DNA of 64,000 nucleotides. It comes from Gigantopelta aegis (Eukaryota > Mollusca > Gastropoda > Neomphalida > Peltospiridae). Shown here piece by piece: positions 20,701 through 64,000 of the stretch (position 1 is its first letter; every line of letters starts with the position of its first letter). The stretch covers positions 111,143,014 through 111,207,013 of the forward strand of contig NC_054702.1 of NCBI RefSeq assembly GCF_016097555.1. The letters run 5' to 3'. The translations under genes and the position numbers were made by a program. The notes below the pieces were generated by a model, which worked only from the letters and a program-made list of their open reading frames with translations, was not told the origin of the DNA and searched no databases.

Positions 20701-23700
20701 GTTGTTTTTGTGATGTTGTTTTTGTGATGTTGTTTTAGTGATGTTGTTTTTGTGATGTTGTTTTTGTGATGTTTGTTTTTGTGATGTTGTTTTTGTGATG
20801 TTGTTTTAGTGATGTTGTTTTTGTGATGTTGTTTTAATGATGATGTTGTTTAAATGATGTTGTTTTAGTGATGTTGTTTTTGTGATGTTTTTGTGATGTT
20901 GTTTTTGTGATGTTGTTTTAGTGATGTTGTTTTTATGATGTTGTTTTTATGATGTTGTTTTAGTGATGTTGTTTTAGTGATGTTGTTTTTGTGATGTTGT
21001 TTTTGTGATGTTGTTTTAATGATGATGTTGTTTTAATGATGTTGTTTTAGTGATGTTGTTTTTGTGATGTTTTTGTGATGTTGTTTTAGTGATGTTGTTT
21101 TAGTGATGTTGTTTTTGTGATGTTGTTTTAGTGATGTTGTTTTTGTGATGTTGTTTTTATGATGTTGTTTTTATGATGTTGTTTCTATGATGATGTTGTT
21201 TCTATGATGTTGTTTGAATGATGTTGTTTGAATGATGTTTGAATGATGTTGTTTTTGTGATGTTTTTGTGATGTTGTTTTAGTGATGTTGTTTTTGTGAT
21301 GTTGTTTTAGTGATGTTGTTTTTATGATGTTGTTTTTATGATGTTGTTTTAGTGATGTTGTTTTAGTGATGTTGTTTTTGTGATGTTGTTTTTGTGATGT
21401 TGTTTTAATGATGATGTTGTTTTAATGATGTTGTTTTAGTGATGTTGTTTTAGTGATGTTGTTTTTGTGATGTTGTTTTAGTGATGTTGTTTTAGTGATG
21501 TTGTTTTTGTGATGTTGTTTTAGTGATGTTGTTTTTGTGATGTTGTTTTTATGATGTTGTTTTTATGATGTTGTTTCTATGATGATGTTGTTTCTATGAT
21601 GTTGTTTGAATGATGTTGTTTGAATGATGTTTGAATGATGTTGTTTTTGTGATGTTGTTTTAGTGATGTTGTTTTAGTGATGTTGTTTTAGTAATGTTGT
21701 TTGAATGATGTTGTTTCTATGATGTTGTTTCTATGATGTTGTTTGAATGATGTTGTTTTAGTGATGTTGTTTTAATGATGTTGTTTCTATGATGTTGTTT
21801 CTATGATGTTGTTTCAATGATGTTGTTTTTGTGATGTTGTTTTAATGATGTTGTTTTTATGATGTTGTTTTAATGATGTTGTTTTAAGATAACAGTCATC
21901 AATGCCTGGATTTATTGAAAATGTTAACAGAAATAAAAGCAACACTCAGCTGTTTGTTGAGTGTGTCTGATCGATTCTACGTATATTTTCAGGACCCCAA
22001 GGCAAGTATGGACTTCAATGATTTGACAGACAAGAAGAAAGATCCAATGCCAAATAAAATGGATCCGCACAACAGGTAATGAACTAAACTGAGAACGATT
22101 TGTTAAAACACAGTATTCATCGTCTGGAGGTTACTTTCATGTAAGGCACGCTTTCCATTAACGTGATTCCGTGGTGCGCATTTCCGTGCACAGAAATGTG
22201 TTTTACCATATCTGTGTTTTTGCAAGTAGATTACTATACAAAATCTTACATTGTCAGAATGTACTTTAAGCCAAAAGCAAATGCTTCATGATATTGACAT
22301 CATTGAAAAACTCACGCAAAAAAATTGCTGAACGATCAACTTTTTTTTATCATTGCTCTGAATCGTGTATATGGAAAAGGCACTTTGTAAATGCATTGTA
22401 TGGATAAACTCGCACGTGGTTTTGTACACAAAATCACGTTAATGGAAAGTGGGCCTAAACGTGGTGATGCTCATTGCAATAACCAAGCAGATGTTATAGT
22501 GATGTAGGTTTATCAGTATTATATTTGTTAAGGAATGATAGTAACATTACACAAGTATGATTATTTCTCTTAATTTTTTTAACACTTAAAGGGACATATC
22601 CTTGTTTCAATCCGTGAAAATTAACACAAAGTTTAGATAATCTACAAACCTGAAACACATTTGGATAAAGTTACAATTGAGTGAAACATAAGTCTGTGAA
22701 ATCTAAGTAAAGTATGATTTCAGTTATCAAAAACAGCTATAATAGTCAAAAATATACCTTAATGTTTAAAAACTAGGTTATGTCCCTTTAATCATAAAAG
22801 GTATTTTTCTTAATGTATTATTTTCTCCTTTCTTTCTGAAATGAAAGTATTGGGAGCTATGATTAATTTAGTAACCACACTTATAAAGGTTTTAATGATT
22901 TAAATTTTAAACTGATTTGAACTTATTTTTACCTCATAGGAGTTGACTACAGGTAAGATTGTGGTAAACTGTTCATGTTGGGTTGGATTAAAATAGGTTT
23001 CAAACTGGATGTTTTTTCTATCTGTTGCATGTTTGTTTATTTGACAGGCATATTGTGGTTGGGTTTATTTTATTTGACAGGCATATTGTGGTTGGGTTTA
23101 TTTGTCTGTTGTTTGTTGTGGCTGATTTTCAGTTGTTTTTGCTTTTTCTTTTATAGTATATTGTGATGCGCTTAAGTATAAATAAAATCTTTATGATGTT
23201 ATTAAACCTATCTGTAAAAGCCAGTGAAGGAATCTACTAAAAATGGCCTTCTGAACAGTTGATCTTTATACTAAGATAAATATCGTTTATGGACTGATGT
23301 TTCTTATATGAGGCACCTGTGTGTGTACAACTGTTATAACAAAATATTTTATTCTTTGTTGTTATTTCTGTGTGCTAATATAGTGAATATTTTCGCATGC
23401 ATGGCATGTACATATATGTCTGGTAGTTGCATCTTGTTGGAAGTTATCAGCATATTTTGTTTATCTCCATGGTATGTGCCTTTCTATCTGAGAAGGTTGT
23501 TCATCGATTCATTTGTATAAATTTACGTTTGTTTGACACCCAATAGCCAATGTACTTTTTGTGCTGAGTCCTGTTAAACATTCAGTCTTTCATTCCTATC
23601 TGAGAAAAAAATTAAGGTTGTTTGCTGATATATTTTAAATTTGTGGGTTTTGTTTTAATCAACCTGCCCCCATTCCTTTCTCTCCTTTTAATTCCAACTC

Positions 23701-26700: not shown

Positions 26701-29700
26701 AGTTTAATGTTTCCTGTTTGTTCAAGGGGTGAGGATTCTTGATGGTACTGTCACAGACTCTCTGGAGGCTGCCTCTTTGAACTTCAACATCAACTACATT
26801 GACATCTTCAGCGCGTCGTGGGGTCCGACGGATGATGGGAAGACGATGGACGCCCCGAAACACTTTGCTGCTCTCGCTCTCGAGCACGGAGCCAAATTTG
26901 TGAGTGGACCCCGGTCTTGATCACCCCAGTCATTTCTCTTGTCATTTTGTGAAGCAATAACACTACAGTGGACTGACATGTTAGAGGTTATGGAATGTGT
27001 GAATACATCTTTATCAGTCCCTCCCCGCCATTATGAGCACCAACAGAATCTCCCCGGAACCTGGATTACATAGTTCTAAAATTGTTTGTTTAGTAGCTAT
27101 TTCTTATATCATCACTTTAGAAAGTTTGGAAAACCATGCACTGAGAAATAAAATTTTGTTTTATGTTTAAAATATCGGTTTCATGTAAACAAGAAGTTGT
27201 AACCCATACAAGACCTGACTTATCGTTCTTGATTTATTTCAAGGGCTGCTGTTTAGTCCACTATTGGATAATTGGATTATAGGATTCATCTCCATCCTTC
27301 TATCTGTCTGTCCGTCTGTCCCACATACAGTTTTCCAGACCTTTTTTATACGCCCATATATGGGTCGTATTATGGTATGGCATTGTCTGTCTGTACGTCT
27401 ATCCGTCCGTCCGTACATATGTATGTCTTGTCTGTTAACCTTATCTTGTCTGGACTATATCTTGCATACAGATGCATACAGGACCTTCAAACCTAAAATG
27501 TAGGAACAACTTGGGATGGAGGTGTGTGTCGTACTATTACTTGGTCACTGTGACCTGCTTTTCACGGTCTAGTGCACATGACAGTAAATCCTTATCTGGA
27601 TCATATCTTGCATACAGATGCATACAGGACCATCAAACCTCACATGTAGGAACAACTTGGGATGATGGTGTGTTGCGTACTATTACTAGGTCACTGTAAC
27701 CTACTTTTCACGGTCTACTGCACATAACAGTAAATCCTTGTCCAGACCATATTTTGCATACAGATGCATACAGGACCATCAAACCTCACATGTAGGAACA
27801 ACTTGGGATGGTGGTTGGTCCAAAACAAATTGTTCATCCATCCCATTGCAAAATGTTCACATAATTAGAATTGAATCATACCTGTAACATATTCATTAAT
27901 ATAGATATGGTTTTCCATCAAACTCCTGATGGGCGTATCATGTACCTCACCGATACTCTTGTTTTGTTTTAGTTTTTTTCACAAGGCCTAAAGATTTTGG
28001 GCTGAAATTTTGCATATAGCTTTATCATTTACTGTTACAGAACAATGTTGACCTTTCATGGCAATTTACACATTATCCACAGAGTTATGGCCCTTGAACT
28101 TAGGAGATACAAACATTTTGGAGACATGTGTTGTGAGAATGCTTATTTATATCAGGGAAGAGGCGGTAAAGGAACTCTCTATGCATGGGCGACAGGGAAT
28201 GGAGGTCACAACCATGATGACTGTGGAGCGGATGGCTATGTGTCCAGTATTTATACGATGTCTTTTGGCTCCAGCACCGACATGGGACGGCGGCCATACT
28301 TCATGGAGAACTGCACGTCAACGCTGGCAGTGGTGCCCTGTGGTGGGGAGGAAGTGAAAGGAGAAGAGAAGTTAAATAGCAGGATCAAACTCAAAGTGGT
28401 TTGTTTTCTACACTTTATTAGATATAGAGTGTGGGATGTAGTTCAGTGGTAGAGCGCTCACCTGAGGTGTTATTGTTTGTAAGATTGATTGACCTCGTTA
28501 GACCCATATGACCAAGTTTTCGTGCTTCAGTTATCAGTAGGTCATGAAAATGTACAGGTTACCCTTGGGTTATCCCATGGGTTGTTTGCATTGCATGTGC
28601 ACAGGTTTCAGTAACTTAAGGCTAACACCAGATTACAATTGGACTGCCCGATAAACCTAGGAGTTTGTCTTTCCCAACTAGTGAACTACAACTAGGATGT
28701 AAAGGTGATTGCATGAACTGTCCTGTCTGTGGAAAAGTGCATATAAAGGTCCATTTAACAATGATGCAATGGACTGTATAATGATCAGCCCCACTATAAA
28801 GTTATGTAATGCTCATCGGCCACTTCACCCTCTCTTTTTCCATGAGTGTTAATCGAGGTTTGTATGTTTCAGGTGACCACCGATGTGGACAACAAGTGTA
28901 TCGAGAACTTCCAGGGAACATCCAGTGCTGCACCTCTCGCTGCAGGCTGTCTCGCTCTCATACTGCAAGCCAAGTAAGTAAACTCAGTGTCTCACTGTCA
29001 TACTGCAGGCCAAGTAAGTAGACTCAGTGTATCGCTGTCATACTGCAGGCCAAGTAAGTAGACTTGGTGTATCGCTGTCATACTGCAGGCCAAGTAAGTA
29101 GACTCAGTGTCTCGCTGTCATACTACAGGTCAAGTAAGTAGACTCGGTGTCTCGCTGTCATACTGCAGGCGAACTAAGTAGACTCGGTGTCTCGCTGTCA
29201 TACTGCAGGCCAAGTAAGTAGACTCAGTGTCTCACTGTCATACTGCAGGCCAAGTAAGTAGACTCAGTGTCTCACTGTCATACTGCAGGCTAAGTAAGTA
29301 GACTCGGTGTCTTGCAGGCCAAGTAAGTAGACTTAATGTCTCACTGTCATACTGCAAGCCAAGTAAGTAGACTCAATGTCTCACTGTCATACTGCAGGCC
29401 AAGTAAGTAGACTCAGTGTGTTGCTGTCATACTGCAGGCCAAGTAAGTAGACTCAGTGTCTCACTGTCATACTGCAGGCCAAGTAAGTAGACTGTGTCTC
29501 ACTGTCGTACTGCAAGCCAAGTAAGTAGACTCAGTGTTCCTCTGTCATACTGCAGGCCAAGTAAGTAGACTCAGTGTCTCACTGTCGTACTGCAGGCCAA
29601 GTAAGTAGACTCAGTGTCTCACTGTCGTACTGCAAGCGAAGTAAGTAGACTTAGTGTCTCACTGTCGTACTGCAGGCCAAGTAAGTAGACTCATTTGATA

Positions 29701-41227: not shown

Positions 41228-42810
41228 ATATACTACTCAAAAGAATTTAAGGGTCAAAAATTTATAACCAACTAAGTTTCAGAGTGTATTAGATTGATGA
41301 TGTAAACTACACCAAATTTTTTATTTATTGTTCCATATTTACAAAAAACCACAAATAAACGTCACTGTATACAAGAAAGTCACATGACATGCTGTCAAAG
41401 TTGAAGGTTGTCAAACATGGATTTTACACATTAGAACATTCGTTTAATAGTGTGTGAATCCACCCCTGGCGCGAATACACTCGACACATCGTTGCCTCAT
41501 GCTGTTGATCAGACGTCTGAAGAACTCTTGGGGAATGGCCTGCCACTCTGCCATAAGAAGTTGACCCAGATCATGAAGGTTGGCCGGAGGGGCATGGTTA
41601 TCCCGAACTCTCCTGCCTAATTCGTCCCAGGCGATCTCTATTGGGGCCAAGTCAGGCGAATATGCTGGCCAATCCATCCTGGCGATACCTTGTTGTCTGA
41701 GAAAGTCCGTTACCACCCTGGCGCGGTGGGGTCTGGCATTGTCATCCTGCAGAACTGCCCCGCCGCCAATCTGCTGAAGGCCTGGGAGAACCAACGGCCG
41801 GATAATCTCATTCAGATAACGGATTCCATTCAGATTGCCATCCACCACATAGAGGGGGGGCCTGTGGTGGATAGAGATGCCGCCCCACACCATGACGCTG
41901 CCACCACCGAACCGGTGACGTTGTCTAACGTTAACGTCAGCGAAGCGCTCCCCAGGACGTCTGTAGACACGAACCCGACCGTCGTTGAACTGGAGACTAA
42001 ACCTGGACTCATCAGTGAACATCACTCGACCCCACTGAACACGTTGCCACCGCAGATGAAGCGTGCACCAGTGACGTCTGGCCGTTCTGTGACGTGGTAG
42101 GAGTGGTGGTCGAACAGCCTGGCGACGGCAGCGTAGATTATTGGCTCTCAGACGATTGCGTATGGTTTGATCAGACACTCGAGTTCCAGTCGCAGTCTGC
42201 AGATTAACACGTAATCGGCGTGCTGTGGCTGTGCGTTGACGTAGAGCCATGTTAGTGATGTAGCGGTCCTCTCTATTTGTAGTGCTTCGGGGTCTTCCCG
42301 AACGTGGACGATTTCGAACAGAATTCGTTGCTTGGTACCGTTGCCACAGTCGGCCAACGACACTGACTGACACGAAGTCTCAGAGCAACATTTCTTTGCG
42401 TATTGCCATCCTGAAGCCAAGCAATAGCCCTTCCTCGATCTTCGATAGTCAGTTGAAGTCGTACCATTATCGAATTTGGAGTGTGCACTGTACACGAACG
42501 CAAGCTCCAATTATACTGAAATTCAGCATTGGGAACATGGAATACACGTGCAAAGCGTGCAAATGAAGCACTTAGCAGACCTTTCGCTTTCGCCCTAATT
42601 TACGTGCAAATGTAAGCATGTTTTCGCCATTAGAACTAGTCGACAGTGTCAATGACAGTGGATTTTAATTCATTTATGGGTTGCTTAGACCCACTTTCGT
42701 CAAAATGGAACAATACCATGAGTGACATTATGGTCTAGCTAATATAATTGACATTCAGAAAATAATGTCGAAAATATCGTCTGACCCTTAAATTCTTTTG
42801 AGTAGTATAT
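41228..42810 (-). mobile_element. Nearly intact Tc1-like DNA transposon
   Basis: About 1.58 kb bounded by inverted repeats: left ATATACTACTCAAAAGAATT then TAAGGGTCA, right TGACCCTTAAATTCTTTTGA then GTAGTATAT. The arms match over about 29 bp, and the flanks are rich in TA as needed for Tc1 insertion at TA. It encodes a single transposase on the minus strand. Confidence 0.9.
41444..42465 (-). pseudogene. Tc1-like transposase, one frameshift
   Basis: Cut-and-paste transposase. The N-terminal part (MVRLQLTIEDRGRAIAWLQD, a helix-turn-helix start) is read from about 42465. The frame shifts in the first helix-turn-helix near 42370. The rest (from VVGRLWQRYQATNSVRNRP) runs uninterrupted to the stop at 41444. 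It has the GRPRST linker, catalytic Asp in MFTDESRF, second Asp in QDDNARPH and Glu in SPDLAPIEIAWDEL. The second Asp (DNARPH) and the Glu are 34 residues apart (DD34E), diagnostic for Tc1. It is nearly full length for the family; the single shift could be a sequencing error or a recent inactivation. Confidence 0.88.
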
Positions 42811-45860: not shown

Positions 45861-45922
45861 TTAGAAACAAATATACACCTCTTTTTCAGCTTTTTGTCTT
45901 CTGTAATCCGCTGGAATAATCC
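45861..45922 (-). CDS. FLVCR-like last coding exon
   Basis: Acceptor TTCAG then GG completes a Gly codon begun in the previous exon. It reads [19 protein letters not shown] and stops with TAA at 45863-45861. The IPxDxRRQ stretch after the last helix matches the end of FLVCR proteins. 3' UTR continues leftwards; no confident poly(A) signal was found. Confidence 0.8.
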
Positions 45923-48900
45923 CTGAAGTATAAAACATAACACAATATATATGGCATTTTAAACAACATTATGTATGCATTTCAACGTTCTGTTGAAAGC
46001 ACAACACTACAATACGCTGTAGATATTGTAGTGGAGAATATACGATGATATGTGAATTTGTTACAAACAATTCACGAGGCCCTTATACTAGACGAATTAA
46101 TTAGTTTAATGAATCGACACTTTAATGAATAAATACCTATGTTCTACTAGTTAATTATTTTTCAAGAATCTACACCTGTGAAACAATGCAATTAAATTTT
46201 GAACTTGTCCATTCAGGTTAAGGATTCGAAACGCATGTCCCATTACTAACAGAACTTGTACCTTGTAAACAACTACAGCGCTTTAGCCCAAGAGTACAAA
46301 CACGATCGAATAAATTTGTGCTAGCCAAGGTATGCAGTTTCACCTGCATTGCTTATAGTGATCGATAATGCAGTACAGAGACTTATCAGATTAAAAATAA
46401 GATTTAGTATATACAATTTGATTGTAATTTGTAAAGAAACTTCGTTTTATTTACAATGAGATTTTAACGTTTGTGGTAGTTAGTAACTTAATAATATGTT
46501 TTTACATAAATTTTAGTTTTATTAATTATATAGTTACATGCCAATTCATTGGTTCTCATTTGACGCAAACGGATAATATTTGTGACGTTTGTCATGCAAC
46601 AACCGGGTTTCTTCTCGTCCGATGTTAACAAACCGATTTCTACACAATTTAATCCTACGTTCAACTCGTGGTAGCTTTTTATTTTCCCCCGATACTATGC
46701 CAGATTTAGAACATAAAAGTAGAAAGGAGAAAACCCACCTATCATAATGGATGATTATGAGTAGAAAGTAGAGTTATGGATGATGTTCAGAGTAGAAAGT
46801 AGAGTTATAAATGATGTTCAGAGTAGAAAGTAGAGTTATAAATGATGTTCTGAGTAGAAAGTAGAGTTATAAATGATGTTCAGAGTAAAAAGTAGAGTTA
46901 TAAATGATGTTCAGAGTAGAAAGTAGAGTTATAAATGATGTACTGAGTAGAAAGTAGAGTTATAAATGATATTCAGAATAGAAAGTAAATTTATAAATGA
47001 TGTTCAGAGTAGAAAGTATATAGTTATGGGTGATGTGCTCAGTAAAAAATAGAGTTATGGATGATGTTCAGAGTAGAAAGTAATTATGGTTGATGTTCTG
47101 AGTAGAAATAGAATTATTAATGATGTTCAGAAGTAGAGTTATGGGTGACGTTCTGAGTAAAAAATAGTTATGGATGATGTTTTGAGTAGAACATAGTTAT
47201 GGATGATGTTTTGAGTTGAAGTAGAGTTTAGTGTGATGTTCTGAGTTGAACATAGAGTTATTAATGTTTTGAGTAGAAAAAAGAGTTACCCACCTGTCAT
47301 GACAGTCCCGATGAAAAGCGCCGAGAAAACGACGACGTTTGCCCACATGACGTTCACCTTGTTCATCATAGCTCGCATACCAAGCGTCATAATGATGCCG
47401 AATGTCTGAAACACAGCAACAAATAGACCGTTTATATAATGATATTATTTTAAATCTGTGTTTGAACATGTAGATCACTACAATACCTAATGGCATATGT
47501 TATAATTAATATATTATTAGAAGCGCAAATCAGTGTAGGTCTCTAAATATAAAGACGAAGACAGTTTAATGAATATTTAATCAGATCAGTATTACAACAC
47601 TGGGTAGAACGCCGGTTTGTCTACATGCCTCCTTTTAAAATAACTTTATAAGTTGAATTCTAAAGTCAATTTTAAATGTTGTTTTTGATTTTTTTGATTT
47701 TTTTTTGTTTTTATAAATGTCAGTTTCTTGATGGATTTTCTGTTTGATTGCATAAGGATTTATTCTACAAATTCAACAGTACATAAATGATTCATTCACA
47801 GGGAACTACCAGTATGTACAAATGCTGGTTTGAAAACATGAACAGATAAAATTATATCCCAGGCACTTTACACACCTGAGCTGACGCATTAAGTAATCCA
47901 GAAGAAATTCCTTCATTTTCGGGAAACGTTAGCTCCGCAGCAAATTCAAAACCAACAGGAAGATATCCAGTCATGAAAAGCCTGCAAAGACACACAATAT
48001 CCTTATACATTTGCTTAAAAACAAACATAATTTCATTATTCATTTGGTTCAAAACAAACTCCGTAACGACACCAGGACCATACAACACATCGCCCCAGCA
48101 TACCCAAGAGCTCCAGCAGTGATGAAGACAACCCCCCCACAACATATAACATACCCAAGAGCTCCAGCAGTGATGAAGACAACCCCCCACAACATATAAC
48201 ATACCCATAAGCTCCAGCAGTGATGAAGACAACCCCCCCACAACATACCCAAGAGCTCCAGCAGTGATGAAGACATCCCCCCCCCACAACATACCCAAGA
48301 GCTCCAGCAGTGATGAAGACAACCCACCACAGCATACCCAAGAACTCCAGCAGTGATGAAGACAACCCCCCCCCCACAACATACCCAAGAGCTCCAGCAG
48401 TAATGAAGACACCCCCCCCCACAACATACCCAAGAGCTCCAGCAGTGATGAAGACACCCCCCCACAACATACCCAAGAGCTCCAGCAGTGATAAAGACAA
48501 CCCCCCACAACATACCCAAGAGCTCCAGCAGTGATGAAGACATCCCCCCCCCACAACATACCCAAGAGCTCCAGCAGTGATGAAGACATCCCCCCCCCAC
48601 AACATACCCAAGAGCTCCAGCAGTGATGAAGACAACCCCCCCACAACATACCCAAGAGCTCCAGCAGTGATGAAGACAACCCCCCCACAACATACCCAAG
48701 AGCTCCAGCAGTGATGAAGACAACCCCCCAACAACATACCCAAGAGCTCCAGCAGTGATGAAGACACCCCCCCACAACATACCCAAGAGCTCCAGCAGTG
48801 ATGAAGACGACCCCCCCCCATATATAACATACCCAAGAGCTCCAGCAGTGATGAAGACAATCCCCCACAACATATCCAAGAGCTCCAGCAGTGATGAAGA

Positions 48901-51900
48901 CAACCCCCCACAACATACCCAAGAGCTCCAGCAGTGATGAAGACAACCCCCCACAGCATAACCAAGAACTCCAGCAGTGATGAAGACGCCACCCCCCCCC
49001 CCACCATATATAACATACCCAAGAGCTCCAGCAGTGATGAAGACGACCCCTCCACCATATATAACATACCCAAGAGCTCCAGCACAGAAGAAGACAACCC
49101 CCCCCCCCCACACACATACCCAAGAGCTGCAGCAGTGATGAAGACAACCCCCACAACATACCCAAGAGCTCCAGCAGTGATGAAGAGACACCCCCTCCCC
49201 CCACAACATACCCAAGAGCTCCAGCAGTGATGGAGACAACCCCCCACAACATACCCAAGAGCTCCAGCAGTGATGAAGAGAACCCCCCCCCCCACAACAT
49301 ACCCAAGAGCTCCAGCAGTGATGAAGACGACCCCTCCACCATATATAACATACCCAAGAGCTCCAGCACTGAAGAAGACAACCCCCCCCACACACACATA
49401 CCCAAGAGCTCCAGCAGTGATGAAGACACCCCCCCACAACATACCCAAGAGCTCCAGCAGTGATGAAGACGACCCCCCCCATATATAACATACCCAAGAG
49501 CTCCAGCAGTGATGAAGACAATCCCCCACAACATATCCAAGAGCTCCAGCAGTGATGAAGACAACCCCCCACAACATACCCAAGAGCTCCAGCAGTGATG
49601 AAGACAACCCCCCACAGCATAACCAAGAACTCCAGCAGTGATGAAGACGCCCCCCCCCCACCATATATAACATACCCAAGAGCTCCAGCAGTGATGAAGA
49701 CGACCCCTCCACCATATATAACATACCCAAGAGCTCCAGCACTGAAGAAGACAACCCCCCCCCCCACACACATACCCAAGAGCTGCAGCAGTGATGAAGA
49801 CAACCCCCACAACATACCCAAGAGCTCCAGCAGTGATGAAGAGACACCCCCTCCCCCACAACATACCCAAGAGCTCCAGCAGTGATGGAGACAACCCCCC
49901 ACAACATACCCAAGAGCTCCAGCAGTGATGAAGAGAACCCCCCCCCCCACAACATACCCAAGAGCTCCAGCAGTGATGAAGACAACCCCCACAACATACC
50001 CAAGAGCTCCAGCAGTGATAAAGACAACCCCCCACAACATACCCAAGAGCTCCAGCAGTGATGGAGACAACCCCCCACAACATACCCAAGAGCTCCAGCA
50101 GTGATGAAGACAACCCCCCACAACATACGCAAGAGCTCCATCAGTGATGGAGACAACCCCCCACAACATACCCAAGAGCTCCAGCAGTGATGAAGACCCC
50201 CCCCCCCAACATACCCAAGAGCTCCAGCAGTGATGAAGACAACCCCCACAACATACCCAAGAGCTCCAGCAGTGATGAAGACAACCCCCCACAACATACC
50301 CAAGAGCTCCAGCAGTGGTGAAGACAACCCCCACAACATACCCAAGAGCTCCAGCAGTGGTGAAGAGAACCCCCCCCCCCCCACAACATACCCAAGAGCT
50401 CCAGCAGTGATGAAGACAACCCCCACAACATACCCAAGAGCTCCAGCAGTGATGAAGACAACCCCCCACAACATACCCAAGAGCTCCAGCACTGATGAAG
50501 AGAACCCCCACAACATACCCAAGAGCTCCAGCAGTGATGAAGAGAACCCCCCCCCCACAACATACCCAAGAGCTCCAGCAGTGATGAAGACAACCCCCAC
50601 AACATACCCAAGAGCTCCAGCAGTGATGAAGACAACCCCCCACAACATACCCAAGAGCTCCAGCAGTGATGAAGACAACCCCCCACAACATACCCAAGAG
50701 CTCCAGCAGTGATGAAGACCCCCCCCCCCCCCCAACATAACCAAGAGCTCCAGCAGTGATGAAGACAACCCCCACAACATACCCAAGAGCTCCAGCAGTG
50801 ATGAAGACACCCCCCCACAGCATACCCAAGAACTCCAGCAGTGATGAAGACAACCCCCCACAGCATACCCAAGAGCTCCAGCAGTGATGAAGACCCCCCC
50901 CCCCAACATACCCAAGAGCTCCAGCAGTGGTGAAGACACCCCCCCCACAACATACCCAAGAGCTCCAGCAGTGATGAAGACACCCCCCCACAACATACCC
51001 AAGAGCTCCAGCAGTGATAAAGACAACCCCCCACAACATACCCAAGAGCTCCAGCAGTGATGAAGACAACCCCCCCCACAACATACCCAAGAGCTCCAGC
51101 AGTGATGAAGACATCCCCCCCCCCACAACATACCCAAGAGCTCCAGCAGTGATGAAGACGACCCCTCCACCATATATAACATACCCAAGAGCTCCAGCAC
51201 TGAAGAAGACAACCCCCCCCCCCACACACATACCCAAGAGCTGCAGCAGTGATGAAGACAACCCCCACAACATACCCAAGAGCTCCAGCAGTGATGAAGA
51301 GACACCCCCTCCCCCCACAACATACCCAAGAGCTCCAGCAGTGATGGAGACAACCCCCCACAACATACCCAAGAGCTCCAGCAGTGATGAAGAGAACCCC
51401 CCCCCCCACAACATACCCAAGAGCTCCAGCAGTGATGAAGACAACCCCCACAACATACCCAAGAGCTCCAGCAGTGATAAAGACAACCCCCCACAACATA
51501 CCCAAGAGCTCCAGCAGTGATGGAGACAACCCCCCACAACATACCCAAGAGCTCCAGCAGTGATGAAGACAACCCCCCACAACATACGCAAGAGCTCCAT
51601 CAGTGATGAGACAACCCCCCACAACATACCCAAGAGCTCCAGCAGTGATGAAGACCCCCCCCCCCCCAACATACCCAAGAGCTCCAGCAGTGATGAAGAC
51701 AACCCCCACAACATACCCAAGAGCTCCAGCAGTGATGAAGACAACCCCCCACAACATACCCAAGAGCTCCAGCAGTGGTGAAGACAACCCCCACAACATA
51801 CCCAAGAGCTCCAGCAGTGGTGAAGAGAACCCCCCCCCCCCCCACAACATACCCAAGAGCTCCAGCAGTGATGAAGACAACCCCCACAACATACCCAAGA

Positions 51901-54900
51901 GCTCCAGCAGTGATGAAGACAACCCCCCACAACATACCCAAGAGCTCCAGCAGTGATGAAGACAACCCCCCCACAACATACCCAAGAGCTCCAGCAGTGA
52001 TGAAGACAACCCCCCCAACATACCCAAGAGCTCCAGCAGTGATGAAGACAACCCCCCCCCCACAACATACCCAAGAGCTCCAGCAGTGATGAAGACACCC
52101 CCCCACAACATACCCAAGAGCTCCAGCAGTGATGAAGACGACCCCCCCCATATATAACATACCCAAGAGCTCCAGCAGTGATGAAGACAATCCCCCACAA
52201 CATATCCAAGAGCTCCAGCAGTGATGAAGACAACCCCCCACAACATACCCAAGAGCTCCAGCAGTGATGAAGACAACCCCCCACAGCATAACCAAGAACT
52301 CCAGCAGTGATGAAGACACCCCCCCCCCACAACATACCCAAGAGCTCCAGCAGTGATGAAGAGAACCCCCACAACATACCCAAGAGCTCCAGCAGTGATG
52401 AAGAGAACCCCCCCCCCACAACATACCCAAGAGCTCCAGCAGTGATGAAGACACCCCCCCCCCCCACAACATACCCAAGAGCTCCAGCAGTGATGAAGAG
52501 AACCCCCACAACATACCCAAGAGCTCCAGCAGTGGTGAAGACAACCCCCCACAACATACCCAAGAGCTCCAGCAGTGGTGAAGACAACCCACACAACATA
52601 CCCAAGAGCTCCAGCAGTGATGAAGAGACCCCCCCCCCCACAACATACCCAAGAGCTCCAGCAGTGGTGAAGACAACCCACACAACATACCCAAGAGCTC
52701 CAGCAGTGATGAAGACAACCCCCCACAACATACCCAAGAGCTCCAGCAGTGATGAAGACCCCCCCCCCCCCCACAACATACCCAAGAGCTCCGGCAGTGA
52801 TGAAGACAACCCCTCACAACATACCCAAGAGCTCCAGCAGTGATGAAGAGAACCCCCACAACATACCCAAGAGCTCCAGCAGTGATGAAGACACCCCCCC
52901 CCACAACATACCCAAGAGCTCCAGCAGTGATGAAGACAACCCCCCACAGCATACCCAAGAACTCCAGCAGTGATGAAGACAACCCCCCACAGCATACCCA
53001 AGAGCTCCAGCCGTGATGAAGACAACCCCCCACAACATACCCAAGAGCTCCAGCAGTGATGAAGAGAACCCCCCCCACAACATACCCAAGAGCTCCAGCA
53101 GTGATGAAGACACCCCCCCCCCACAACATACCCAAGAGCTCCAGCAGTGATGAAGACAACCCCCACAACATACCCAAGAACTCCAGCAGTGATGAAGAGA
53201 ACCCCCCCCACAACATACCCAAGAGCTCCAGCAGTGATGAAGAGACTGCCCCCCCCCCCCCACAACATACCCAAGAGCTCCGGCAGTGATGAAGACAACC
53301 CCCACAACATACCCAAGAGCTCCAGCAGTGATGAAGACCCCCCCCACCAACATACCCAAGAGCTCCAGCAGTGATGAAGACAACCCCCCCACAACATACC
53401 CAAGAGCTCTAGCAGTGATGAAGACCCCCCCCACCAACATACCCAAGAGCTCCAGCAGTGATGAAGACAACCCCCCACAACATACCCAAGAGCTCCAGCA
53501 GTGATGAAGAGAACCCCTCCCACAACATACCCAAGAGCTCCAGCAGTGATGAAGACACCCCCCCCCACAACATACCCAAGAGCTCCAGCAGTGATGAAGA
53601 CAACCCCCACAACATACCCAAGAACTCCAGCAGTGATGAAGAGAACCCCCCCCCCCCCCCAACCATATATAACATACCCAAGAGCTCCAGCAGTGATGAA
53701 GACAACCCCTCACAACATACCCAAGAGCTCCAGCAGTGATGAAGACAACCCCCCCCCCCCCCAACACACACACCATATATAACATACCCAAGAGCTCCAA
53801 GAGTGGAGACAACCCCCCACAACATACCCAAGAGCTCCAGCAGTGATGAAGACGACCCAAATTCGATCCAGTTCGAGCGTGAACGTGAAGACCACCATAC
53901 CGATCATGGATAGAACATAGATACCAAGAGATGTCCCCCTAAAATAAAAACACGGTGTAGTGGGTATTGTTAAAACCTGTGCCAATAAACTGACACCACT
54001 AGAGCACAATGATTTATTAATCATCGGATATTGGATGTTAAACATTTAGTACTTTTAACATATAATCTTAGAGAGGAAACCCGATCTTTTATGTGCACTA
54101 TCCTACAGACAGAATAGCACATACCATGTTATTTGGTATACCAGTCTGGCGGGCGTTTTACCACTGGGCTACGGTACGCCTTCCACAACCCTTATGGGGC
54201 GAGACGTAGCCCAGTGGTAAAGCGTTCGCTTGATACGCGGTCGGTTTAGGATCGATCCCCGTCGGTTGACCCATGGGGCTATTTCTCGTTCCAGCCAGTG
54301 CTCTACAAGTGGTGTAACAAAGGCCGTGATATGTACTATCCTGTCTGTGGGATGGTGCACATATAAGTTCCCTTGCTGCTAATCGAAAAGAGTAGGCCAT
54401 GAAGTGGCGACAGCGGGTTTCCTCTCTCAATATTTGTGTGGTGCTTAACCATATGTCTGACGCCATATAACCATAAATGAAATGTAATGAGTGCGCCGCT
54501 AAATGAAACATTTCCTTCCTTCCTTCCCACAACTCTAATAAAAAAAATACGATTCTGTATGGCAGTACATGTACCATCGTAAACATACATCCCTCTACAA
54601 CACAACTGTTTTAAACAAGACAGTAATGAAGTATTATGTTTTTGTGGTTTCAGGGTTGTTTCAGAGTTTGTTATTGCAAGCTAGATCAATACAGCAAGTA
54701 TTTCAGTTAATAATGAACTTATTTTGTGTTTGTTGATTTTGTATCCACAATTCACAACTCAAAATATTTGAAAAAATATATGACTATATGTTGAGCCTTC
54801 TCTTGTATAACTATAAGCCAGTTATAGCATAAATGTTTCAAGGTTTCTAGTTTGTCTGGCTACCAGCCAACCACAACACGTCTTACTTGAATGTTCTGGT

Positions 54901-57133
54901 CTTGTCCAGCCAGATTCCCGCCAGAATAGCACCGACGATTCCAACGAGGACGATGGTCAACCCTATCTGACCAGCTTCCTTCTCAGCGTTCTGGAAAAAG
55001 ATTTAACTTAATCATCTTTCAGAATAATGGAAACAATATAAGCACATCATTTAATTATCATTTAATTAGATCATCAGACGCGTGTGCGGAGGTGCGAGTA
55101 GGGGGTTTGTGCTGACACCTGACTTAGGTCTCACTACACAGCTGACCTCCGGTGAGAGTTCATTAATGACGATCCACTATAATTCCTAATTGTAACACAA
55201 GTTATGGTTCACATATTCACTTCCAGGAAATGGTGAAGAATTAAAACAATATGTGTGTTTAATGGTAAGCCTTCTGGCTGTATTTTGCCCATGTTATTTT
55301 GTAATATTGTGCACCGACCTTTTGGAACATGGGTGTATAGCGCAAGAGACAGCCGGAGTGAATCGGTTAATGAACCACCTGTTCGGACCCGTACTACAGC
55401 CAGATGCGGTCATATCATGGGCGTACAAGGGGGTGGGGGGTGGGGGATGGGGGGTTGGTGTTTCCGATGGGTTCGACCGAATCCCCCCTGAAATCGCTTT
55501 TTTAATAATTTAATATATCTGACATTATTATATTTACTCAACATAGAAATATATGCCCAATATCTCTGCAATCTATTTTGGAACCCCCCATTTTGCATAT
55601 AGCAAAAAACTGAGACGAAAATGTTCTCAATTTTGGAGTGAAAATAAATGCTTATATAATGTATGTTCGCAATGATGTATGTTGTTAGCGCCAACGAGAA
55701 CCCATTTTATTGGCAATCTTCATTTGAAGTTGGGCAGTTTAACATGGGTTTTAATGGCGAATGACATCTGTGTAGTGAGACCATAATGTAAAACATGAAA
55801 TTTATGTTTATCCCCAAAAATATAAGTTTAGCCAGCCAAAATGAGAATATACTAGTGTAGCATCCTTATAAAAAGGTCATTTCATCAATTCGGTTTTTAG
55901 CCAAACTAATGGGGCCCTCTTTGGGCAAATATTGCAAACAAGTCAATTTTATTTATTTTTATTATATTTTTTTTTATTTTTTTTTATTTTATGGGGAGGG
56001 GTCAAGCAATGCTATGCTAGTGTTCTTACATGTAATATATAAATTGATCTGAGTGTCTAACATTGAGTTTCTCATTGTAAAAGGTCAAAATTCAAGGTCA
56101 CAAGGTAAATATCCAAATTCAGCCTAATTTCTGTGATTTTGTGCATAATGAGTTTTTTCGAATGTACAGTCAGAGTGACAAACAGTTTTGATGGTATTAT
56201 GAATATATAACATAGTATTCTACTATCAAATTATAATTTGTATCCACCATTAATAATGTGTGGATCTTCATGCTGAAATATGCAGAAAAAGCCAAGATTT
56301 CAACACTTAACTATGAAATGATTATTGCCCTTGGGAACCATTGATCAAAACTAATATTTTTAATGAACTAACCAGATAATTAGTTTCTTTGTATGTTACT
56401 TATATCAGAACTACCTAAAAGGTCATACATTGCCATGTACTGGCTGGCTGTTTGATGGACATCTATTGTGTAGATGACCAAGGAGTAACAATGTGATATG
56501 AAGTTTTATTGGATGGTATGGTGCATCTATCTTTTGGTGTATTGTTTAGAGTTCATAAGTTATACTGGTCTTGTATGGCTTGTCGTGGTGTAAATGACCC
56601 AAATTATCAAACTTACTTCAAACCAAGTTTGACAAAATCTGTTAATAGACTTTAAGGTCTCACTAAACAGTTGACTTGTTTTAAACATATTTAAACAAAT
56701 TAATATTTTCAACTTTATATTTATTGTTAAGTTTTTGCATTTTTATGTCATTTCATATGTTGGACTATATTTTTCAGCGTACGATTAAATGAGTTTTATT
56801 GTTTGTAGATGAAATGTTTACGAATCGTTCTACAATAAACAAACCGTACGTAGCTTACAAAATTAATGTTTTGTTACTGTAATTAAATTAGCAAGAAAAA
56901 CCTCGGCTCTCACAAAACAACATTTTGGACCCTCGGATTGGAATTGCCTACTATTGCCTATTAGTCCAGTGGGCAAGAAAAATTTATTCCGCATGAGCTG
57001 ACGTCATGGAATGGGTCTGTCTTGTATGGCTAGGGATGGGAGAAATATCGATATTGCACCCTTACCTTGAAATAATTGAGAACTTCTATGTTTAGTAACG
57101 TGGCTATGGCGTAGTAACATCCAGTGTTGATAC
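45861..57133 (-). CDS. FLVCR-like membrane transporter (SLC49 family), C-terminal half
   Basis: Major-facilitator carrier related to FLVCR1/FLVCR2, which are linked to choline/ethanolamine and heme transport. Six minus-strand exons join in phase: 57133-57066, 54990-54887, 53938-53828, 47981-47876, 47405-47294, 45922-45861. They give 186 codons and a stop; the 5' half lies right of the window. Six hydrophobic segments, probably helices 7-12, are visible: [38 protein letters not shown] followed by the MFS loop [66 protein letters not shown]; and [39 protein letters not shown] is the signature FLVCR block. The short basic tail is [20 protein letters not shown]1 and FLVCR2 cannot be separated on this half. 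The intron cutting helix 10 is filled by a tandem array of the exon's own end. Confidence 0.88.
46755..47289. repeat. ~31-bp minisatellite starting just inside an FLVCR donor
   Basis: About 17 units containing GTAGAGTTATAAATGATGTT and CAGAGTAGAAA on the plus strand. Read on the gene strand, the first degenerate unit begins 4 to 6 bp inside the intron after exon 47405-47294 (ATGACAG/GTGGGTAACTC). Confidence 0.92.
47294..47405 (-). CDS. FLVCR-like exon: helices 11 (end) and 12
   Basis: Acceptor TTTCAG; reads [20 protein letters not shown] and [17 protein letters not shown]; donor ACAG/GTGGGT one base into the next codon. Phase fits both neighbours. Confidence 0.88.
47406..47875. other. Intron, no feature seen
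   Basis: Intron between the FLVCR exons 47981-47876 and 47405-47294. AT-rich, no repeat recognised. Confidence 0.6.
47876..47981 (-). CDS. FLVCR-like exon: signature block
   Basis: Acceptor TTTGCAG then G completes the Gly of ALG. It reads [20 protein letters not shown] and [15 protein letters not shown], the best conserved FLVCR stretch. Donor CAG/GTGTGT, phase 0. Confidence 0.95.
48092..53835 (-). repeat. 5.75-kb array of FLVCR exon end plus 5' splice site, ~130 copies
   Basis: Read on the gene strand, each ~40-48-bp unit is GTCTTCATCACTGCTGGAGC, then TCTTGG, then GTATGTTGTGGGGG with a G run of varying length. The first ~30 bases are the end of exon 53938-53828 (VFITAGALG), and the rest is its GTATGT donor plus the first intron bases. 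The rightmost unit is the functional exon end. Variants include units ending GTTATATATGGTGG and units with GCTGCAGCTCTTGG or TTCAGTGCTGG. Larger blocks are duplicated inside the array (compare about 48755-49260, 49424-49900 and 51125-51540). It occupies almost the entire intron to 110 bp before the next acceptor. Copy number is estimated from length. Confidence 0.95.
53828..53938 (-). CDS. FLVCR-like exon that seeds the array: helices 9 and 10 (start)
   Basis: Acceptor ATTTTAG; first base completes Lys. It reads [27 protein letters not shown] and [10 protein letters not shown], with two bases of the last Gly before donor CTTGG/GTATGT. Matches FLVCR helix 9 and the first half of helix 10. Every unit of the neighbouring array copies its final ~30 bases. 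Confidence 0.92.
54015..54182 (-). mobile_element. SINE, minus strand, internally deleted
   Basis: Head on the minus strand (CGTAGCCCAGTGGTAAAACG), followed by GGTATACCAAATAACATGG, CTGTCTGTAGGATAGTGCAC and GGGTTTCCTCT. It stands head to head with the next copy. Confidence 0.75.
54190..54535 (+). mobile_element. Full-length tRNA-derived SINE
   Basis: Starts TATGGGGCGAGACGTAGCCC with box A (TAGCCCAGTGGTAAAG) and box B (GGATCGATCCCC), and the complete body: GTGGGATGGTGCACATATAA, AGCGGGTTTCCTCTCTCAAT, CTGACGCCATATAACC. Ends in a TTCCTTCCTTCC tail. The most complete copy in the window. Confidence 0.9.
54536..54886. other. Intron, no feature seen
   Basis: AT-rich intron sequence next to exon 54990-54887. 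Confidence 0.5.
54887..54990 (-). CDS. FLVCR-like exon: helix 8 and MFS loop
   Basis: Acceptor TTTTTCCAG; reads [20 protein letters not shown] and [14 protein letters not shown], two bases into Lys, donor CAA/GTAAGA. The G-x-W-L-D-K-T loop is the family's cytosolic MFS motif after helix 8. Confidence 0.92.
54994..57065. other. Intron, mostly featureless
   Basis: About 2 kb intron. A G-rich stretch lies at 55425-55465. The part from about 56000 rightwards is the parent of the eroded copy at 60090-61500. Confidence 0.6.
57066..57133 (-). CDS. FLVCR-like exon: helix 7
   Basis: Acceptor TTTAAAG (poor pyrimidine tract). Two bases complete a Gly codon, then [20 protein letters not shown] and FK; donor AAG/GTAAGG. 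Matches the GINxGxxYAIxTLLN block of FLVCR proteins. The preceding exons are outside the window. Confidence 0.88.
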
Positions 57134-57734: not shown

Positions 57735-60075
57735 TGATGCATCAAGGCTTTGATATGAAGACACACTACCTTATGATATGAAGATACACTGCCGTATGAT
57801 AAAAAAAACCCCACTACTGTGTGCTACGAAGACACACTACCTTAAGATATAAAGACACACTACCTTATGATATGAAGACACACTACCTTATGATATGAAG
57901 ACACACTACCGTGTGATATAAAGACACACTACCGTAAGATATAAAGACACAATACCTTATGATATGAAGACACACTACCGTGTGATATAAAGACACACTA
58001 CCGTATGATATAAAGACACACTACCGTATGATATAAAGACACACTACCTTATGATATGAAGACACACTACCGTGTGATATAAAGACACACTACCGTGTGA
58101 TATAAACACACACTACCTTATGATATGAAGACACACTACCGTGTGATATAAAGACACACTACATTATGATATGAAGACACACTACCTTATGATATGAAGA
58201 CACACTACCTTATGATATGAAGACACACTACCTTATGATATGAAGACACACTACCTTATGATATGAAGACACACTGCCTTATGTTATGAAGACACACTAC
58301 CTTATGATATGAAGACACACTACCGTGTGATATGAAGACACACTACCGTATGATATAAAGACACACTACCGTATATGATATGAAGACACACTACCTTATG
58401 ATATAAACACACCCTACCTTATGATATGAAGACACACTACCTTATGATATGAAGAGACACTACCGTGTGTTATGAAGACACACTACCGTATGATATAAAG
58501 ACACACTACCGTATGATATGAAGACACACTACCTTATGATATGAAGACACACTACCGTGTGATATGAAGACACAATACTGTATGATATAAAGACACACTA
58601 CCGTATGATATGAAGACACACTACCTTATGATATGAAGACACACTACTGTGTGATATGAAGACACACTACCGATATGAAGACACACTGCCTTATGATATG
58701 AAGACACACTACCGTATGTTATGAAGACACACTACCGTGTGATATAAAGACACACTACCGTATGATATGAACATACAACCGTATGATATGAAGACACTCT
58801 ACCTTATGATATGAAGACACACTACCTTATGATATGAAGACACACTACCTTATGATATGAAGACACACTACCTTATGTTATGAAGACACACTACCTTATG
58901 ATATGAACACACACAACCGTATGATATGAAGACACACTACCTTATGATATGAAGACACACAACCGTATGATATGAATACACACTACCTTATGATATGAAG
59001 ACACACTACCGTGTGATATGAAGACACAATACCGTATGATATAAAGACACACTACCGTATGATATGAAGACACACTACCTTATGATATGAAGACACACTA
59101 CCGTGTGATATGAAGACACACTACCGATATGAAGACACACTGCCTTATGATATGAAGACACACTACCATATGTTATGAAGACACACTACCGTGTGATATA
59201 AAGACACACTACCGTATGATATGAACATACTACCTTATGATATGAAGACACACTACCTTATGATATGAAGACACACTGCCTTATGTTATGAAGACACACT
59301 ACCTTATGATATGAAGACACACTACCTTATGATATGAAGACACACTACCTTATGTTATGAAGACACACTACCGTATGATATGAACACACACAACCGTATG
59401 ATATGAAGACACACTACCTTATGATATAAAGACACACAACCGTATGATATGAAGACACACTACCTTATGATATGAAGACACACTACCGTATGATATGAAG
59501 ACACACTACCTTATGATATGAAGACACACTACCTTATGATATGAAGACACACTACCTTATGTGATGAAGACACCACACTATGATGAGACACACTACCGTA
59601 TGAGATGAAGACACACTATGATATGAATGACACACTACCTTATGATATGAAGACACACTACCTTATGATATGAAGACACACTACCGTATGATATGAAGAC
59701 ACACTACCTTATGATATGAACACACACTACCTACTGTATGAAGACACACAACCTTATGATATGAAGACACACTACCGTATGATATGAAGACACACTACCT
59801 TATGATATGAACACACACTACCTTATGATATGAATGACACACATGATACCACTACCGTATGATATGATACCGTATGATATGAAGACACACTACCTTATGA
59901 TATGAAGATATGAACACACAACCGTATGATACCTTATGATATGAAGACACACCTTATGATATGAACACACACTACCTTATGATATGAACACACACTACCT
60001 TATGATATGAACACACACTACCTTATGATATGAACACACTACCTTATGAAGACACACTACCTATGAACACACACT
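57735..60075. repeat. 23-bp satellite, first block
   Basis: Units of 23 bp built on ATGATATGAAGACACACTAC followed by CTT, CGT or similar, with TATAAAG and GTGTGAT variants. About 100 units estimated from length. It lies in the intron upstream of the FLVCR-like exon 57133-57066. Confidence 0.95.
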
Positions 60076-60089
60076 ACCTTTTGGGCATA

Positions 60090-61500
60090 TTGATATGAGG
60101 GGTCAAGCAATGCTACCTTATGTTCTTACATGTAATATATAAATTGATCTGAGTGTCACACTACCTTATGATATGAAGACACACAACACAAGGTAAATAT
60201 CCAAATTCATGATATGAAGACACACTACCGTATGATGTACAGTCAGAGTGACAAACAGTTTTGATGGTATTATGAATATACATAGTATTCTACTATCAAA
60301 TTATGATTTGTATCCACCATTAATAATGTGTGGATCTTCATGCTGAAATATGCAGAAAAATGAAGATTTCAACACTTAACTATGAAATGATTAGCCCTTG
60401 GGACCACATCAAAACTAATATTTTTAATGAACTAACCAGATAATTAGTTTCTTTGATGTTACTTATATCAGACTACAAAAGGTCACATTGCCATGTACTG
60501 GCTGGCTGTTTGATGGACATCTATTGTGTAGATGACCAAGGAGTAACAATGTGATATGAAGTTTTATTGGACACTATCTTTTGGTGTATTGTTTAGAGTT
60601 CATAAGTTATACTGGTCTTGTATGGCTTGTCGTGGTGTATGACCCAAATTATCAAACTTACTTCAAACCAAGTTTGACAAAATCTGTTAATAGACTTTAA
60701 GGTCTCACTAAACAGTTGACTTGTTTTAAACATATTTAAACAAATTAATATTTTCACACTACCGTTATGATATGAATATGTTGGACACACGTACGATTAA
60801 ATGAGTTTTATTGTTTGTAGATGAAATGTTTACGAATCGTTCTATGATAAACAAACCGTACACTTACAAAATACCTTATGTATATTAGCAAGACCTCACT
60901 ACCTTTTGGACCCTGGATTGGAATTGCCTACTATTGCCTATTAGTCCAGTGGGCAAGAAAAATTTATTCCGCATGACACACGTCATGGAATGGGTCTGTC
61001 TTGTATACCTATCGATATTGCACCCTTACCTTGAAATATGAAACTTCTATGTTTAGTAACGTGGCTATGGCGTAGTAACATCCAGTATACCTTTAAACAG
61101 ATAATAATTACAATTGCAGCACAGCACAATCACATACTCTTATGATATAAACGACACACCTGATCCAACAGAAAATTAGATAGACACGTATCACATTTAA
61201 AAGAAGACACCCGATGTTGATACCTTTACCTTATGAGCAGAACATAATCGATTCCATACTCACTATACATGTAACTATCATTATAGAGAAATGGAATAAT
61301 ACAAACTGACCCAGTAAATAGATCGATGATATGAATACACATCACTACCATATTAGACGTGATGCCTTTATGAAGATCACTTATATCAAAACACTCTATT
61401 AAAATGCATCTCATCAATTAACATTCTAGTGGCCATCTTGAATATGGCTGCCATATCGAATGATATGAAGACACATACTACCGAGGTATATTCTTTGATT
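60090..61500. repeat. Eroded duplicate of 56000-57770, mixed with satellite
   Basis: Follows 56000-57770 in order (for example CAGTCAGAGTGACAAACAGT, TGCCATGTACTGGCTGGCTG, GGCCATCTTGAATATGGCTG) but is about 300 bp shorter. It has many small deletions, and pieces of the 23-bp satellite stand where unique sequence should be. Confidence 0.9.
61026..61093 (-). pseudogene. Broken duplicate of the FLVCR helix-7 exon
   Basis: Minus-strand copy of exon 57133-57066 inside the eroded duplicate. Splice sites are still visible (TTTAAAG/GTAT and TTTCAAG/GTAAGG), but seven bases are missing near the 5' end and the 3' part is altered (TAGAAGTTTCATATTTC), so the frame is lost. Confidence 0.8.
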
Positions 61501-61504
61501 TATT

Positions 61505-64000
61505 TAAGAAGTACAGAATATGCATCAAGGCTTTGATATGAAGACACACTACCTTATGATATGAAGATACACTTATGATATGAAGACCCACTACTGTGTG
61601 CTACGAAGACACACTACCTTAAGATATAAAGACACACTACCTTATGATATGAAGACACACTACCTTATGATATGAAGACACACTACCGTGTGATATAAAG
61701 ACACACTACCGTAAGATATAAAGACACAATACCTTATGATATGAAGACACACTACCGTATGATATAAAGACACACTACCGTATGATATAAAGACACACTA
61801 CCGTATGATATAAAGACACACTACCTTATGATATGAAGACACACTACCGTGTGATATAAAGACACACTACCGTGTGATATAAACACACACTACCTTATGA
61901 TATGAAGACACACTACCGTATGATATAAAGACACACTACCTTATGATATGAAGACACACTACCTTATGATATGAAGACACACTACCTTATGATATGAAGA
62001 CACACTACCTTATGATATGAAGACACACTACCTTATGATATGAAGACACACTACCTTATGTTATGAAGACACACTACCTTATGATATGAAGACACACTAC
62101 CGTATGATATGAAGACACACTACCTTATGATATAAAGACACACTACCGTTATGATATGAAGACACACTACCTTATGATATAAACACACCCTACCTTATGA
62201 TATGAAGACACACTACCTTATGATATGAAGAGACACTACCGTGTGTTATGAAGACACACTACCGTATGATATAAAGACACACTACCGTATGATATGAAGA
62301 CACACTACCTTATGATATGAAGACACACTACCGTGTGATATGAAGACACAATACTGTATGATATAAAGACACACTACCGTATGATATGAAGACACACTAC
62401 CTTATGATATGAAGACACACTACTGTGTGATATGAAGACACACTACCGATATGAAGACACACTGCCTTATGATATGAAGACACACTACCGTATGTTATGA
62501 AGACACACTACCGTGTGATATAAAGACACACTACCGTATATATGAACATACAACCGTATGATATGACACACTACCTTATGATATGAAGACACACTACCTT
62601 ATGATATGAAGACACACTACCTTATGATATGAAGACACACTACCTTATGATATGAAGACACACTACCTTATGATATGAAGACACACTACCGTATGATATG
62701 AAGACACACTACCTTATGATATAAAGACACACTACCGTATGATATGAAGACACACTACCTTATGATATGAAGACACACTACCGTGTGATATGAAGACACA
62801 ATACCGTATGATATAAAGACACACTACCGTATGATATGAAGACACACTACCTTATGATATGAAGACACACTACCGTGTGATATGAAGACACACTACCGAT
62901 ATGAAGACACTACCGTATGATATAAAGACACACTACCGTATGATATGAAGACACACTACCGTATGATATAAAGACACACTACCGTATGATATGAAGACAC
63001 ACTACCTTATGATATGAAGACACACTACCTTATGATATGAAGACACACTACCTTATGATATGAAGACACACTACCTTATGATATGAAGACACACTACCTT
63101 ATGATATGAAGACACACTACCTTATGATGAAGACACACTACCGTATGATATGAACACACACAACCGTATGATATGAAGACACACTACCTTATGATATGAA
63201 GACACACCGTATGATATGAAGACACACTACCTTATGATATGAAGACACACTACCGTATGATATGAAGACACACTACCTTATGATATGAACACACACTACC
63301 TTATGATATGAAGACACACTACCTTATGTTATGAAGACACACTACCTGTTATGAAGACACACTACTGTATGATATGAAGACACACTACCGTATGATATGA
63401 AGACACACTACCTTATGATATGAACACACACTACCTTATGATATGAAGACACACAACCGTATGATATGAAGACACACAACCGTATGATATGAAGACACAC
63501 TACCTTATGATATGAACACACACTACCTTATGATATGAACACACACTACCTTATGATATGAACACACTACCTTATGATATGAAGACACACTACCTTATGA
63601 TATGAACACACTACCTTATGATATGAACACACACTACCTTATGATATGAAGACACACTACCGTATGATATGAAGACACACTACCGTATGATATGAAGACA
63701 CACTACCTTATGATATGAACACACACTACCTTATGATATGAAGACACACTACCTTATGATATGAAGACACACTACCTTATGATATGAACACACACTACCT
63801 TATGATATGAAGACACACTACCGTATGATATGAAGACACACTACCGTATGATATGAAGACACACTACCTTATGATATGAAGACACACTACCTTATGATAT
63901 GAAGACACACTACCGTATGATATGAAGACACACAACTGTATGATATGAACACACTACCTTATGATATGAAGACACACTACCTTATGATATGAAGACACAC
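61505..64000. repeat. 23-bp satellite, second block, runs off window
   Basis: Same unit as 57735-60075, and unit variants follow in the same order at first (for example CACTACTGTGTGCTACGAAG at 57809 and 61589), so the satellite was duplicated together with the neighbouring region. Confidence 0.95.

Follow-up and report, generated by a model that had tools for sequence, protein, structure and literature searches.

The 64,000-nucleotide stretch analysed here, referred to as the window, comes from the gastropod Gigantopelta aegis (assembly GCF_016097555.1, contig NC_054702.1, forward-strand positions 111,143,014 to 111,207,013). Its minus strand carries part of an FLVCR-like transporter gene (54990-45879), one intron of which holds a long tandem array whose units repeat the end of the preceding exon together with its 5' splice site. 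In transcript order, the features of the gene are as follows:

54887..54990, minus strand: coding exon that precedes exon A, FLVCR-like (sequence; FLVCR2 match of the joined exons)
53828..53938, minus strand: exon A; its 3' end with the donor (GCTCTTGG followed by GTATGT) appears to have seeded the array (sequence; FLVCR2 match)
48085..53858, minus strand: tandem array of 128 units, mostly 42-43 bp, reaching 31 nt into the 3' end of exon A
53710..53712, minus strand: TGA of unit 4, which closes the exon-A frame (stop after 75 residues; position read off the sequence)
47982..48084, minus strand: rest of the intron, made up of unique sequence and carrying the acceptor TTTGCAG
47876..47981, minus strand: exon B, in frame with exon A through the first donor (FLVCR2 match)
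47294..47405, minus strand: exon C, FLVCR-like (FLVCR2 match of the joined exons)
45879..45922, minus strand: exon D, FLVCR-like (FLVCR2 match of the joined exons)

The five exons, joined at the first donor (159 residues), align without gaps to positions 366-522 of FLVCR2 (E=1.9e-55), and exons A and B by themselves match with E=1.2e-29. This bears out the FLVCR-like assignment made in an earlier inspection of the letters, hereafter the sequence-only reading.

Tandem Repeats Finder (TRF) reported the repeat at 48198-53651 (period 43, 123 copies, score 6840), with a second stretch at 53569-53858, at the exon edge. Given this score, a chance origin of the array is not credible. Units were counted with a wraparound alignment parse running from 53851 to 48085, whose 131 rows reduce to 128 units when the exon lead-in, the long-spacer overflow of unit 2 and the final row of unique intron are dropped. 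The sequence-only reading, which had described about 130 copies of the exon end and donor within the intron, is thereby confirmed. Unit 1 is the genuine end of exon A. Typically, ~26-31 nt from the exon end are followed in a unit by a 5' splice site and a run of G; most often the unit is 43 bp long (49 units), and next most often 42 bp (24 units). The earlier statement that every unit equals the exon end is too strong, as only 80 of the 128 match the 29-nt core (exon tail plus donor) perfectly. Similarly, the near-perfect decoy donors put at about 130 do exist but are fewer: GGTATG is intact in 119 units, that is, the true donor and 118 decoys, and lost in the other nine. Homology between the 118 decoys and the exon extends back to position -31, beyond which it drops to background level, with a near-fixed mismatch at -27. 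Nine units have the exon-like C at that position, all of them with a TTATATA insert in the spacer (found in 11 of the 128 units), and may preserve the founding form. Between the end of the array at 48085 and the acceptor lie ~100 bp of unique sequence, close to the ~110 bp first estimated.

The units stand head to tail, fall within the ~10-100 bp range and include recurring variants, as is characteristic of a minisatellite. Among the 128 units there are 66 distinct types, and runs of three to five units reappear in identical form at distances of 14, 33, 47, 60 and 74 units. That these runs recur at fixed offsets shows growth by slippage and unequal exchange, as had been proposed, and seeding at the exon-intron border is likewise supported.

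We computed the outcome of splicing exon A to exon B from each decoy. A stop resulted every time (118/118): 117 products are 75 residues long, of which 116 terminate at the unit 4 TGA and one, from decoy 53721, terminates through a frameshift in exon B; the remaining product has 61 residues. Intron retention also leads to a stop after the same 75 residues, at the unit 4 TGA. The sequence-only reading had also suggested a choice among equivalent donors; in outcome, the decoys are not equivalent to the true donor, and the homologous protein is predicted from the first donor only, in agreement with the earlier claim that the correct protein needs that donor.

The arrangement is not confined to this gene. 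Five cases of an exon tail and donor repeated in an array, the FLVCR case included, were found in 361 kb, comprising the window and 297 kb from other parts of the genome. In the donor scan, 101 arrays in 321 kb were examined first, followed by five in a further 40 kb (loci L028-L031), which yielded no case; rows other than the cases were set aside as non-exons by eye, with no homology search on them, and one sampled locus, L022, was chosen since L001 already resembled a case. The sequence-only reading had taken the array for an isolated peculiarity, a view no longer tenable with four more of like build:

28873..28973 of the window, plus strand: proprotein-convertase exon, ending CAAGCCAA followed by GTAAGT (furin and Peptidase_S8 matches)
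28948..29693 of the window, plus strand: array of the convertase exon, 40-bp units of exon tail and GTAAGT donor, with 18 GTAAGT sites including the real one
L008, 3680-4211: receptor-phosphatase-like exon with 39-bp exon-tail/donor units, 10 further copies
L001 and L022, about 2700-1413 of contig C1 (at its start), minus strand: Ig-like exon with an array of ~90-bp units (Ig_3, 2.1e-9)
L005, 3010-2640, minus strand: putative Hint-like exon with a donor array, 4 donor sites ~53 bp apart, including the real one

Together with the next exon, the convertase exon matches furin (E=4e-28) and Peptidase_S8 (6.5e-13), and Pfam matches were obtained for three of six further convertase pieces tested, one just below the cut-off. 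The phosphatase-like exon matches RPTP epsilon (E=4.2e-7; Pfam 3e-4), and six of its ten further copies keep an intact GT. The Ig-like case has 12 donor sites, counting the real one, and the exon at L005 is tentatively considered Hint-like (Hint E=0.043, under the Pfam cut-off). According to the match profiles, each unit overlaps its exon by about 31, 26, 27, 51 and 20 nt in the FLVCR, convertase, phosphatase-like, Ig-like and Hint-like cases, respectively. In the computed products, decoy use leads to an immediate stop for both the convertase and the Ig-like exon, and in the Hint-like case a stop lies 47 nt on, ahead of the first decoy. Splicing from decoys 1, 2 and 3 of the phosphatase-like case would keep the frame and lengthen the protein by 13, 26 and 39 residues, respectively.

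Other repeats lie close to the two genes in the window. Between convertase exons there is a 14-bp minisatellite (17457-21886, consensus TGTTTTAGTGATGT, ~315 copies) with an acceptor-like TTTTAG inside. A 31-bp array (46750-47288) begins just after the donor of exon C; this exon was considered as a further donor-array case and not counted, the donor-like copy being at the far end of the array and equalled in 64 of 500 shuffles. Upstream of the FLVCR exons, a minisatellite with a 23-bp unit extends over more than 6 kb (57751-64000), runs past the window edge and has GGTAGTG in its minus-strand consensus. Finally, a 311-codon open frame on the minus strand (41447-42379) resembles, judging by eye, a Tc1/mariner-type transposase.

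Tandem repeats make up 33% of the bases of the window. Among the sampled loci, the mean coverage is 22% in the 13 that lie no more than 5 Mb from a contig end, compared with 5% in the 16 located deeper inside the contigs; an enrichment of variable number tandem repeats (VNTRs) in subtelomeric regions of the human genome is claimed in the title of PMC7608644. We consider it likely that the FLVCR array arose as a minisatellite spanning a 5' splice site, is tolerated within the intron and is spliced out, and that such arrays recur as by-products of a genome rich in minisatellites and are not an adaptation. The anatomy of the units shows that the founding event was a tandem duplication across the 5' splice site of exon A, which then expanded by slippage and unequal exchange, as the recurring unit runs show. 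Copies downstream of the true donor would fall in the intron and escape the selection acting against copies inside an exon, and it is because of this downstream position that the array would be tolerated. The pre-mRNA would mostly be spliced from the first donor, giving an exon of normal size, as the homology of the protein suggests. Occasional use of a nearby decoy would produce the early-stop transcripts computed above, which would probably undergo nonsense-mediated decay, and a long array may cause the following exon to be skipped more often, as is described for human ABCA7.

Some points weigh against this explanation. Use of the first donor is read from protein homology. Positions +2 to +5 of the donor (TATG) are invariant in 128 of 128 units, which constraint could also explain. 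Lastly, random placement of founder units predicts 0.20 covered donors among the ~14 in the window, a rough estimate based on 20 listed founder units (the FLVCR array being listed twice), with exons recognised by eye from open frames and the FLVCR case included; two are covered, so something may favour 5' splice sites.

This last point leads to the alternative that 5' splice sites are active seeding points, where transcription-linked processes such as R-loops, a stalled spliceosome or U1-bound nascent RNA over-produce arrays. The recurrence of five cases in 361 kb speaks for it, as does the probability of two or more covered donors under the rough placement estimate (P=0.017), and three of the five arrays have units of similar build (39-43 bp with ~26-31 nt of exon). 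However, without the FLVCR case, one case is left and the excess in the window is not significant (P for one or more=0.18). The three cases outside the window are all on C1, the most-sampled contig (107 of 297 kb), and none turned up in the remaining 190 kb, which came from other contigs. Minisatellite units are not enriched in donor motifs either: GTRAGT occurs in six of 68 arrays, compared with 3.8 +/- 1.9 in shuffles. Moreover, an array touching an acceptor exists too. At L019 (5640-5823), ~41-bp units with decoy acceptors (TTTTACAG followed by TTACC) end at the acceptor of an exon with which they share ~5 nt, an AMP-binding-like exon by a match under the Pfam cut-off (E=4.4e-4); it was the one row judged by eye to be an exon among the many of an acceptor-side control scan of 101 arrays in 321 kb. 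Better survival of junction arrays than of in-exon arrays would look similar to active seeding, and we think active seeding unlikely. A broader proposition is that, in this genome, some mutational process founds minisatellites preferentially across 5' splice sites, with the result that a sizeable fraction of coding exons, with 3 to more than 100 decoys, forms a natural library varying in decoy number, spacing and frame at near-constant donor strength; this appears doubtful to us.

Alternatively, the array could have been selected as a regulator, a bank of U1 donors and G-run enhancers that delays splicing, blocks premature polyadenylation or tunes FLVCR output. A U1 landing array had been suggested in the sequence-only reading. 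The 119 intact GGTATG sites, the 128 runs of at least four G on the transcript strand and the unvarying TATG are compatible with such a role. Nevertheless, the donor G is changed in seven of the 128 units and the G at -1 in two, and the invariance of TATG is weak evidence for a selected U1 array, other unit columns being invariant as well. The exon-tail parts, useless for the proposed role, are kept to a similar degree, as recent copying predicts. Their columns contain five synonymous and 12 nonsynonymous change types, against opportunities of 21 and 45, and the unit changes look neutral. Like arrays also follow unrelated genes. We regard selection for regulation as very unlikely, and the U1 suggestion is not supported as a selected function.

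It could also be argued that the array adds coding sequence, with decoy use or intron retention giving FLVCR forms that contain a repeated peptide. The longest open frame in the array does span 1886 codons (53709-48052), the array rebuilt from the consensus has no stop in any sense frame, and the first three phosphatase-like decoys are in frame. Yet a stop in unit 4 closes the exon-A frame, and none of the 118 FLVCR decoys escapes a stop. Stop-making changes number three among 29 distinct ones, near the 3.64 expected from the base-change spectrum and not clearly short of it, and the idea that the stop-free sense strand had been selected for coding was rejected on this ground. Because the consensus unit is itself stop-free and stop-making changes are close to their expected number, the long open frames are a by-product of unit composition, and we give added coding almost no credence. 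An assembly artefact that inflated or misplaced the repeat is just as hard to believe: long near-identical arrays are difficult to assemble and the copy number may be wrong, but the 66 unit types stand in non-random order, the array is joined continuously to its matching exon and four other loci are of like build.

The structure is real, striking and explicable, probably by the founding of a minisatellite across a 5' splice site; it is of interest because it recurs and because it provides a natural test of donor choice. The choice of the spliceosome among nearby identical donors is usually studied with artificial duplications. Here, such a test is provided by nature at five loci, where the true donor is accompanied by 3 to 118 decoys; any decoy leads to an early stop at four of them, and the first three decoys are in frame at one. 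RNA-seq of the animal would measure donor choice directly. The arrays also suggest a route by which introns may grow in minisatellite-rich genomes, and how genes in such genomes may acquire splicing liabilities similar to that of ABCA7.

As in donor-spanning intronic VNTRs of the ABCA7 and IFI6 kind, the FLVCR array spans an authentic donor and its units hold a donor-like site. The human IFI6 minisatellite has donor-like units of 12 bp, in ~26 copies, that give small in-frame insertions, whereas every FLVCR decoy leads to a stop. Two downstream repeat units of the IFI6 (6-16/G1P3) minisatellite serve as donors in the account of PMC4526556, which cites Turri 1995, the likeness being a tandem repeat at an exon end with several usable donors. 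Tandem duplications carrying splice signals, as the FLVCR array does, are also described for ATP2A1 and for 24-bp repeats in fission yeast (PMC4974935). In those cases a new intron arises from an exonic AGGT, whereas the FLVCR duplication spans an existing donor and merely lengthens the intron, the acceptor used being in the unique sequence that adjoins exon B, outside the array.

The closest known case is the intron-18 VNTR of human ABCA7, which starts at the true donor and is described with copy numbers from ~12 to 427 and lengths of up to 10.7 kb (PMC5954066). In that report, a one-unit decoy product, frame-shifted and subject to nonsense-mediated decay, accounts for 2 +/- 1% of transcripts, and skipping of exon 19 rises with VNTR length. 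Both arrays are intronic, extend from an authentic donor and have donor GTs in their units. The ABCA7 units, however, are 25 bp long, start at the GT and contain no exon sequence as described there, whereas the FLVCR units are 42-43 bp long with ~26-31 nt of coding exon; length variation and splicing were measured for ABCA7, and the FLVCR array is known from the sequence of one assembly. Recurrent exon-tail donor arrays were not found among the literature matches listed, judged by titles and the beginnings of abstracts. What differs from these systems is the coding tail present in each unit and the recurrence of the arrangement in several genes.

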